Shown one piece after another: positions 36,473-39,670 of a DNA stretch of 52,510 nt. A program made the position numbers and the translations under genes. The DNA comes from Phaeodactylibacter xiamenensis (GTDB lineage Bacteria > Bacteroidota > Bacteroidia > Chitinophagales > Saprospiraceae), in NCBI RefSeq assembly GCF_000759025.1, contig NZ_JPOS01000054.1:1-52510 (forward strand), in the 5' to 3' direction. Each line of letters opens with the position of its first letter. Positions within the stretch are counted from its first letter, which is position 1. The notes beneath the pieces were generated by a model that saw nothing but the letters and a program-made list of their open reading frames with translations, had not been told where the DNA came from and ran no database searches.

Positions 36473-37519
36473 AACTTGGAAAATCTTTGTCCTAAGTTAA
36501 CGCGTATTTGGGACAATTGCTTAGTCTGGCTTCCTAATGAAACGTTAAGAGGGGGGCGGGGCTTCTTCGCCGAAGTCCGTAAGCAATAATCAAAGGCAGG
36601 AAGTATGGTCAAGGCTAACGATCGATAACCTGAGAGTGCTGTTGGATTCCCAGGGTCTTAGTTGACCTCCCGCACCTACGGCGCGGAGCCCTTTCGATCT
36701 CTTGGAGTTACCCACATTATGCCCCTAATGGGGTACTGGGGCTGGGATGGCTGGATTTTACACAAAGCAGTCACCGCTCTAGTCCGCTATCAGTGATAAG
36801 GGAAGGTGTAAGCAACTCCTTAAAGCTCCGTCAGGAGCTGTATGTGGGTAACCTCTAATCAGTTGCCGCTTTCCCGCGCCGTAGGTGCGTAATGTGCTTA
36901 TGTCGAAAGGTTCGGTGCCAGACGTGAGCGATAGGGCATCGTTTCCAGGCGTAGCCGCTCTGAGTAGTTCACATCCCGCACCTACGGCGCGGAGCCCTTT
37001 CGATCTCTTGGAGTTACCCACATTATGCCCCTAATGGGGCACTGGGGCCGGGATAGCTGAGTTGTACACAAAGCAGTATACAGCTCTAGTCCGCTATCAA
37101 GGCTCAAGAGAAGAGAAGGTGTAGGCAACCCTTGAAGCTCCGTCAGGAGCTGTATGTGGGTAACCCCAATCTGTTGCCGCTTCCCCGCGCCGTAGGTGCG
37201 TAATGTGCTTATGTCGAAAGGTTCGGTGCCAGACGTGAGCGATAGGGCATCGTTTCCAGGCGTAGCCGCTCTGAGTAGTTCACATCCCGCACCTACGGCG
37301 CGGAGCCCTTTCGATCTCTTGGAGTTACCCACATTATGCCCCTAATGGGGCACTGGGGCCGGGATAGCTGAGTTGTACACAAAGCAGTATACAGCTCTAG
37401 TCCGCTATCAAGGCTCAAGAGAAGAGAAGGTGTAGGCAACCCTTGAAGCTCCGTTAGGAGCTGTATGTGGGTAACCCCAATCTGCTGCCGCTTCCCGCGC
37501 CGTAGGTGCGTAATGTGCT

Positions 37520-37981
37520 TCACTCCAAGGGTTTAAAGATAAAACGTTCATCATACTCCACCTCGAAGGCTTTCAGGAAGTCTTCATACTCTTCCAGAAA
37601 AGTCTTTTTCCGATGGTGCTCCTCTTGCTTTTGGATATACCGGATTACCCTCGGTACTTGGGACTTGGCATAAGAAAACGCGCCATAACCGGTCTGCCAG
37701 GAAAAGTAATTTTTACAAAAACCGCTCTTGTTTATCCATTCCGAGGACTCTCCTTTAACATCCCGCATCAGGTCAGATAGAGATTGAGTAGGGCGCATGC
37801 CAAAGAACAGGTGTACGTGGTCCGGCATACCTCCAATTTGAAGAACCTTATGGTTGTGGTTTTGTACAATGCCGGTGATGTAACGATATAATTCTTCCTG
37901 CCATTCTTTTTGTATGGCAGCTTGACGATAGCGTACGGCAAAGACGGCTTGTATGTGAATTTGTGTGTAGGTATTTGGCAT
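37520..37981 (-). CDS. tnpA: IS200/IS605-family Y1 (HUH) transposase
   Basis: The ATG at 37981 gives 153 residues, the normal length for a stand-alone IS200-type TnpA; the frame upstream of it is not conserved text. The HUH metal motif is PDHVHLF (H55, H57). The catalytic tyrosine is Y115 in RVIRYIQKQEEHH, with the family glutamine Q119 four residues later. The GYGAFSYAKSQV block is typical of this clade. It should cut and rejoin single-stranded DNA at hairpins. No tnpB accessory gene is present. The stop codon overlaps the last base of the conserved repeat-array sequence, so the gene is flanked directly by palindromic units. It appears intact. Confidence 0.95.
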   Translation of the reverse strand: MPNTYTQIHIQAVFAVRYRQAAIQKEWQEELYRYITGIVQNHNHKVLQIGGMPDHVHLFFGMRPTQSLSDLMRDVKGESSEWINKSGFCKNYFSWQTGYGAFSYAKSQVPRVIRYIQKQEEHHRKKTFLEEYEDFLKAFEVEYDERFIFKPLE

Positions 37982-38113
37982 TGGTTTAGGGGGATTAGCA
38001 AAAGTTAAGAAAGAGGTTGCCTGACAAATATAAGCTCTACCTCCCAATTTATCTCAACGGAACAGGAGGTAGCAGACTAACCATTTCGCTCTTTTACGAG
38101 AGAAAGATTCAAG
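37521..38113 (-). mobile_element. IS200-like element embedded in the palindromic array
   Basis: Unique sequence lies between taatgtgctt (to 37520) and tcacatccc (from 38114), both of which match the standard inter-unit spacer. It contains the transposase gene and ~130 bp upstream of it. The segment replaces about 70 bp of spacer rather than simply interrupting it. Whether the true element ends include the neighbouring folded units cannot be decided from one copy. Confidence 0.65.
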
Positions 38114-39670
38114 TCACATCCCGCACCTACGGCGCGGAGCCCTTTCGATGCCTTTGGGTTACCCACATTATGCCCCTAATGGGGCACTGGGGCTGGGATA
38201 GCTGAGTTGTGCACAAAGCAGTATACAGCTTTAGTCCGCTATCAAGGCTCAAGAGAAGAGAAGGTGTAGGCAACCCTTGAAGCTCCGTTAGGAGCTGTAT
38301 GTGGGTAACCCCAATCTGTTGCCGCTTCCCGCGCCGTAGGTGCGTAATGTGCTTATGTCGAAAGGTTCGGTGCCAGACGTGAGCGATAGGGCATCGTTTC
38401 CAGGCGTAGCCGCTCTGAGTAGTTCACCTCCCGCACCTACGGCGCGGAGCCCTTTCGATCTCTTGGAGTTACCCACATTATGCCCCTAATGGGGCACTGG
38501 GGTGGGGATAGCTGAGTTGTGCACAAAGCAGTATACAGCTTTAGTCCGCTATCAAGGCTCAAGAGAAGAGAAGGTGTAGGCAACCCTTGAAGCTCCGTTA
38601 GGAGCTGTATGTGGGTAACCCCAATCTGTTGCCGCTTCCCGCGCCGTAGGTGCGTAATGTGCTTATGTCGAAAGTTTCGGTGCCAGACGTGAGCGATAGG
38701 GCATCGTTTCCAGGCGTAGCCGCTCTGAGTAGTTCACATCCCGCACCTACGGCGCGGAGCCCTTTCGATCTCTTGGAGTTACCCACATTATGCCCCTAAT
38801 GTGGCACTGGGGCCGGGATGGCTGAGTTGTGCACAAAGCAGTTACCGCTCTAGTCCGCTATCAAGGCACAAGGGAAGGTGTAAGCAACTCCTTGAAGCTC
38901 CGTTAGGAGCTGTATGTGGGTAACCCCAATCTGCTGCCGCTTCCCCGCGCCGTAGGTGCGTAATATGCCTATGTGGAAAGGTTTGGTGCCGAACGTAAGG
39001 GATAGAGTAGCGTTTCCAGGCGTAGCCGCTCTGAGTAGTTCACATCCCGCGCCTACGGCGCGGAGCCCTTTCGATCTCTTGGAGTTACCCACATTATGCC
39101 CCTAATGTGGCACTGGGGCCGGGATGGCTGAGTTGTGCACAAAGCAGTTACCGCTCTAGTCCGCTATCAAGGCACAAGGGAAGGTGTAAGCAACTCCTTG
39201 AAGCTCCGTTAGGAGCTGTATGTGGGTAACCCTCTAATCTGTTGCCGCTTCCCCGCGCCGTAGGTGCGTAATGTGCGTATGTCGAAAGTTTCGGTGCCAG
39301 ACGTGAGCGATAGGGCATCGTTTCCAGGCGTAGCCGCTCTGAGTAGTTCACCTCCCGCACCTACGGCGCGGAGCCAGCGCGATGCCAGGGAGTTGCCCAC
39401 ATTATGCCCCTAATGGGGCACTGGGGCAGCTAGAGCTGGGTGTACACAGAGCAGTTACCGCTCTATTCTGCTATCAAAGCTCAAGGGAAAGTGTAGGCAA
39501 CCCCTGGAGCTCCTTTAGGAGCTGTATGTGGGTAACCCTCTAATCAGTTGCTGTTTCCCGCGCCGTAGGTGCGTAATGTGCAATGTCCCCAAGGAATACA
39601 GCAAAGCCCAGGTGGTATCAAAGCAGTGCCGAAAAGAGCAGATTAACAGGCGCAGCCACACGCTTTAAGC

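Follow-up and report, generated by a model that had tools for sequence, protein, structure and literature searches.

A subclass 1.2 Y1 transposase and a candidate two-hairpin DNA partner in Phaeodactylibacter xiamenensis and other Bacteroidota

Why should an intact transposase gene stand where a palindromic array would have one of its spacers? The question is raised by a stretch of 52,510 nucleotides from Phaeodactylibacter xiamenensis (assembly GCF_000759025.1, NZ_JPOS01000054.1, positions 1-52,510, forward strand; hereafter the window), in which eight palindromic units surround tnpA, a gene for a Y1/HUH transposase. A first-pass annotation had taken the units for substrates or relatives of this transposase, in the manner of the REPtrons (REP, repetitive extragenic palindrome). 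The relation is supported by the flanks of the gene in relatives, while the building block and its phase had to be revised. We consider it probable that the locus represents a REPtron-like single-strand DNA system, composed of a TnpAY1 transposase of subclass 1.2 and a cognate module of two hairpins.

The array, its half-module and its transposase

The array consists of eight units of 218-224 bp between 36671 and 39573, which are 81-99% identical to one another. Six spacers of exactly 87 bp (85-100% mutual identity) separate them, and tnpA occupies the remaining interval, between units 3 and 4. The inverted 15-bp ends are exact on the left in seven of the eight units and on the right in all eight, unit 7 being the exception. 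The anatomy described at first pass (eight ~220-bp units with inverted 15-bp ends, ~87-bp spacers and an intact Y1 gene for one spacer) stands, but for this one mismatched end. The features are as follows, with the strand given where a feature has one.

36661..39583: array in full, made of 16 half-modules that alternate in orientation (model search and unit comparison)
36671..36889: unit 1
36977..37200: unit 2
37288..37510: unit 3
38122..38344: unit 4
38432..38654: unit 5
38742..38960: unit 6
39048..39268: unit 7, left 15-bp end with one mismatch
39356..39573: unit 8, the most divergent, 81-85% identical to the other units
36890-36976, 37201-37287, 38345-38431, 38655-38741, 38961-39047, 39269-39355: 87-bp spacers
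37511..38121: 611-bp gap between units 3 and 4, with tnpA in place of an 87-bp spacer
37520..37981, minus strand: tnpA, Y1/HUH transposase of 153 aa from ATG (open reading frame, Y1_Tnp match and motifs)
37446..37520, plus strand: half-module b-GGTAA-a, 3' of tnpA and directed towards it
38112..38187, minus strand: half-module b-GGTAA-a, 5' of tnpA and directed towards it
~37446..38187, minus strand: candidate autonomous element of half-module, tnpA and inverted half-module (same layout in relatives)

Each outer 15-bp end forms an imperfect hairpin, CCGCGCC-GTA-GGTGCGG, in which one pair is G.T; further inside, each half-unit has a second hairpin, followed by a linker such as ATGTGGGTAACC. The unit is made of two inverted copies of a ~77-nt half-module, in which hairpin b is followed by 7-9 nt, GGTA(A/G), ~20-25 nt, hairpin a and then ATGTG or a similar sequence. 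The gene-bearing layout, in the window and in relatives, is b-a-tnpA-a'-b'; the repeating building block is therefore the two-hairpin half-module, and the 220-bp unit of the first-pass annotation is probably half a period out of phase.

Pairing in the half-module was assessed in an alignment of 43 rows, 31 from the window's own genome and 12 from relatives. The own-genome loci gave 46 matches to hairpin a, 15 of which were left out: eight of the 16 window copies, and matches in L012 (the first), L080, L082 (two), L088 and L089 (two). Here and below, L-numbers denote loci, G-numbers genomes (G000 being the window's own) and C-numbers contigs. The own-genome rows had been picked up because they resemble the unit and hairpin a; pairing in hairpin b played no part in finding them. 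Across the two helices 96.9% of 552 cells are paired, a figure that, like the other pair counts, leans towards structure because the 12 rows from relatives were picked partly for containing hairpins. Compensatory changes in the arms, which the first-pass annotation had anticipated, are present: both sides have changed in seven of the 13 pairs, with 79 double-change cells, and the covariation score is 0.381, against 0.06-0.11 with the partners slid. The G.T pair is retained in 41 of the 43 rows; its neighbouring pair varies, being C-G in 25 rows, T-A in 17 and G-C in one.

Folding was carried out for one of the eight units, unit 4 with short flanks (38100-38360). It goes far beyond dinucleotide shuffles on both strands, whether the sequence is treated as DNA (z -6.8 and -7.8 on the two strands) or as RNA (z -7.3 on the plus strand, -7.5 on the minus strand). 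The strong RNA folds would suit units that act as structured RNAs, an idea also put forward at first pass. But as single-stranded DNA the unit departs from the shuffles to about the same degree on both strands, palindromes fold on either strand anyway, and the whole window has no Rfam match at the gathering threshold; we find a role as RNA scarcely credible.

The frame of tnpA is open for 153 codons from its ATG, and the product matches Pfam Y1_Tnp (E 2.5e-28). It scores 74.3 bits against the NCBIfam IS200 model NF033573 (cut-off 55) and 30.5 bits against the REP-associated model NF047646 (RAYT), short of the cut-off of 80. The predicted structure (predicted local distance difference test, pLDDT, 88) has the ISDra2 and IS608 transposases as its top matches, with the REP-bound 4er8 at rank 30; the nearest solved chain by sequence is ISDra2 (E 1.3e-14). 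Residues Y115, Q119, H122 and H123 are invariant in all 40 aligned relatives. The motifs DHVH, WQ and YIQKQEEHH fit TnpAY1 subclass 1.2, of which the protein, judged by its sequence, is a member.

With the IS200 model above its cut-off and ISDra2 and IS608 as the closest solved relatives, a possible objection is that an ordinary IS200/IS605 insertion landed by chance in the spacer of an unrelated palindromic satellite. Three observations argue otherwise. First, both modules beside the window's tnpA are intact and face the gene, with their a hairpins inward. Second, the three Y1 genes found in this genome are dissimilar, the other two being 44-45% identical to tnpA. Third, equivalent inverted modules flank relatives of the gene on both sides in many genera (see below), which largely refutes a plain insertion. 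We therefore hold chance insertion to be very unlikely.

The two other Y1 genes, L016 (G000:C22) and L017 (G000:C25), also of subclass 1.2, lie among a different family of hairpin repeats (CATGCTCTTACGAACATG, GTTCCTACGGAAC and AGTCCCGGAGGGACT).

Modules beside related transposases

Modules were counted beside tnpA relatives in two sets. The first, or named set, is the best 80 of at least 391 relatives; most come from Bacteroidota, spread over many orders, and the rest include some Balneolaceae and one metagenome-assembled genome labelled Myxococcales. Among the 80 are two pairs of loci with near-identical flanks (L204/L206 and L228/L229). The second, or family set, comes from 150 genomes of the same family, our own included, of which 92 contain a tnpA homologue. 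Here 92 loci were taken (the window, L016, L017 and 89 of the better homologue matches), and the exclusion of five without the strict Y---Q--HH pattern left 87 loci of subclass 1.2. A module was counted where a hairpin was followed 6-12 nt later by GTAG; the window locus, which carries GTAA, is not a match in these tests. The controls were shuffled flanks (30 shuffles in the named set) and, for 54 named loci, two distal windows each, read on one strand.

Several of the nearest relatives have the layout b-a-tnpA-a'-b', with modules facing the gene from both sides. In the named set, GTAG-type modules face the gene upstream at 37/80 loci and downstream at 35/80 (45/80 on either side, 27/80 on both), where the shuffled flanks gave means of 0.37 and 0.57 with maxima of 3 and 2, and the distal windows gave none in 108. 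The family set has such modules upstream at 25/87 loci and downstream at 19/87 (33 on either side, 11 on both), against shuffled means of 0.57 and 0.80. A count in the family set with GGTA[GA] in place of GTAG gave 15/87 upstream and 12/87 downstream, and 8 and 11 facing away (shuffled means 0.8 and 0.7).

Among modules found by a hairpin with GTAG at 6-12 nt, hairpin b is followed by GTAG at a distance of 7-9 nt in 102 of 116 sides. A second hairpin follows 8-45 nt after GTAG in 95 of 122 modules, and in 91 of the 95 the distance is 19-29 nt. When both sides of a gene are compared, on average 4.45 of five inner stem bases agree (38 loci), against a shuffled mean of 3.23, and none of 2000 shuffles reached so high. 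Directly 5' of either hairpin we found no conserved tetranucleotide, each of the 10 preceding positions holding at most 0.4 bits.

Gene-free elements, a possible mechanism and known systems

A covariance model of the half-module found at least 70 copies in the own genome (all E ≤9.3e-5), a lower bound since 150 of 1260 first-look candidates were scored. Besides the 16 in the window, 54 lie on 14 other contigs; the first-pass annotation had proposed a search for such copies. They occur as arrays, as inverted pairs in both phases and as singletons; the opposite phase, a-b-centre-b'-a', is also found alone (C80).

Three relatives carry a dispersed foldback element of ~165-250 bp that contains no gene. 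Ten copies were read in G063, each an inverted pair of modules that spans 164-168 bp and includes a short spacer; this core pair occurs inside two outer palindromes, so that the outer repeat does not settle the ends of the element. In G055, 15 of 20 places align as one foldback element in unrelated flanks, most with the ends ATGANTCATGCG...CGCATGANTCAT; the places left out of the alignment (L353, L358 and L362-L364) are tandem, different or truncated. In G023 the inverted partner is present in 15 of 20 copies. As far as their sequences tell, these pairs look like non-autonomous elements with the ends but without the gene, and their layout suggests b-a-X-a'-b' as the phase, where X is the gene, a short spacer or the window's 87-bp spacer. 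The exact hairpins of the G055 and G023 elements are absent from the flanks of five G055 tnpA genes and one G023 tnpA gene; one G055 tnpA flank (L051) has the same hairpin type as the G055 element. At L185 and L186 in G063 the outermost inverted repeat is GGGCTGTACAGTTCTA, which the remaining G063 copies that possess an outer repeat do not share.

A further pattern was seen on two contigs of the own genome, where all 18 model-found half-modules are on the minus strand (C75:168.4-187.7k, with L172 and L173, and C76:43.8-61.1k, with L174 and L175). Their surroundings are mosaic repeats between genes, and three belong to a tandem repeat of 195 bp. The strand bias may be like that of single-strand transposition, or may come from local duplication. 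An integron-like reading of these same-strand singles was set aside because the modules sit in mosaic repeats; no integrase search was made.

If the locus is a REPtron-like system, it may work as follows. The gene-bearing element would be an inverted pair of modules around tnpA, and the non-autonomous derivatives would retain the pair with tnpA replaced by a short spacer (~15-30 nt in the relatives, 87 bp in the window). TnpA would recognise and cut the folded module on single strands exposed in replication, and would move or copy the module pair; the eight-unit array may have arisen by tandem duplication of unit plus spacer.

In its protein the window agrees with subclass 1.2 of TnpAY1 as characterised in the available text of the published survey (Quentin et al. 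2018, PMC6006769): DH[IV]H, WQ and Y---Q--HH motifs, a length of ~150 aa, occurrence in Bacteroidetes, and low copy number with dissimilar copies per genome. The same text lists the subclass without REPs and generally without IS200-type end structures. Here GTAG modules face the gene at 45/80 named and 33/87 family loci; our flank data contradict this published negative, which describes the subclass and does not define it by sequence. The REP rule quoted there, GTAG or GTGG 0-2 nt 5' of the hairpin, would have missed the module. Subclass 1.2, published without a listed DNA partner, would gain a candidate substrate with a defined spacing and conserved bases. Should this be borne out, many small palindromic repeats of Bacteroidota would gain a family, a testable mechanism and a co-evolving enzyme.

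REPtrons (TnpA_REP/RAYT of E. coli and Stenotrophomonas), so far as the consulted part of PMC8266576 describes them, likewise have a Y1 gene between inverted hairpin repeats, dispersed copies and GTAG. According to that text the E. coli REP enzyme requires GTAG and an irregular stem, a stem like that of hairpin a here, and the Stenotrophomonas group 3 enzyme uses a perfect stem and its loop. Unlike in REPtrons, each module here has two hairpins, with GTAG 7-9 nt 3' of b and ~19-29 nt 5' of a rather than 0-2 nt 5' of a hairpin, and the window's TnpA has Y---Q (YIQKQ) where RAYT proteins have Y---NP. REPINs, BIMEs and GTAG dimers, in the parts of PMC3116915 and PMC3733652 drawn on here, resemble our modules in that their palindromes, too, stand in inverted pairs, alone or in tandem clusters, but the elements described here measure ~165-250 bp with four hairpins, and the window array runs to eight units at a ~310-bp period. 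IS200/IS605 elements (IS608, ISDra2) share the protein fold and family and have end hairpins, whereas here the ends are inverted two-hairpin structures, no conserved tetranucleotide marks the hairpin foot, and the genome has no near-identical copies of the gene. The system operates in REPtron fashion, but module and transposase subclass both differ. It stands outside the RAYT family, because the protein falls short of the RAYT model and lacks its motif, and GTAG does not lie at the hairpin foot.

RayT genes have been described near a resistance gene in Chryseobacterium, palindromes going unmentioned in the part of the text examined (PMC11194056). Beyond the papers named, no description of the pairing of this module with subclass 1.2 was found in the literature searched, which largely excluded subscription papers and preprints. 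A wider proposal, which we put forward as tentative and as more doubtful than the reading of the locus itself, is that subclass 1.2 TnpA is the engine of unrecognised, phylum-wide single-strand mobile elements in Bacteroidota, in which the composite unit is b-GTAG-a and inverted pairs form the mobile foldback element. The spacing within this unit resembles the geometry of IS608, a fused right-end/left-end junction with a cut at or near GTAG; a description of that geometry was not found in the literature searched.

Association across genomes and orthologous sites

Modules were also sought in all 150 genomes, with stricter filters and at most 31 candidates scored per genome. They are present in all 15 genomes with a tnpA at least 58% identical to ours, a cut-off picked after the lists were seen, and in 31 of 135 others; with the eight genomes used to train the model excluded, the comparison is 7/7 against 31/135 (Fisher 6e-5).

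The late choice of this cut-off is one of several points that weigh against a transposase-driven system. Modules also face away from the gene, above the shuffled level, in both the named set (upstream 15/80, downstream 19/80, both 6) and the family set (upstream 12/87, downstream 13/87, both 1); these are taken to be further modules of stacked pairs. At 35/80 named and 54/87 family loci there is no GTAG-type module facing the gene, and the window's own modules have GTAA where many relatives have GTAG. No tnpA match at E 0.001 turned up in the sibling species G151, which has 25 modules, nor in G020, G050, G090 and G107, with 9-20 modules each, or in G153, with three. In G023, with 31 scored modules, the best tnpA is 45% identical. 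Modules appear to outlast the gene, though draft assemblies may miss genes. Of the three outcomes that the first-pass annotation had said would count against it, two are found in part: units in genomes with no tnpA match (the six genomes just named before G023), and a transposase in unrelated flanks, the flanking sequence being unrelated and the architecture often the same.

Comparison of siblings bears on how the arrays change. At one orthologous site on C83 the number of units is four in G000, three in G152 and ~1 in G151, and many other comparable module sites are common to siblings. The comparison of empty and filled sites, proposed at first pass, gave no exact empty/filled pair at the orthologous sites compared among G000, G151, G152 and G098, which is a further point against the reading we prefer. 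With a varying unit number, many shared sites and no exact empty site, array growth looks like tandem duplication; and since no exact empty site was found, the case for mobility, which we infer, rests on the dispersed copies in relatives.

The sites kept at orthologous places, the changes in unit number and the 25 modules of G151 would also fit a satellite or structured-repeat array that the host retains as a terminator, for RNA stability or as a nucleoid or supercoiling site; its link to the transposase would be historical, and it would change by recombination only. Against this, G055, G023 and G063 contain elements that are alike, have their ends in common and lie in unrelated flanks, and that look like the products of transposition; we judge a host satellite rather unlikely, and prefer the REPtron-like system of TnpA and its module.

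The breakpoints seen at C10 and C83:362k in comparison with G151, and at C3 in comparison with G098, proved to be other insertions or diverged sequence, not module insertions, and L085 and L307 have a module in common with different upstream sequence. At the purB locus, purB of G098 lies next to a homologue, at 44% identity, of the window's other neighbour, with no array, and G150 has a different neighbour, with no window array; the module model found no modules on the purB contigs of G098, G150 and G151, where no exact junction is readable. The purB locus of G151 (L193, G151:C433) has a CRISPR-like array, its repeat containing GTCGCAGTCCTATCTAATCTGG, where the window has the palindrome array. 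Finally, comparison of L302 (G151) with L084 (G000:C10) revealed a ~150-bp palindromic insertion whose ends are CTATGTTTGGAGC/GCTCCAAACATAG and whose junction shows a short direct repeat; this is a separate element, like a miniature inverted-repeat transposable element and unlike the modules.

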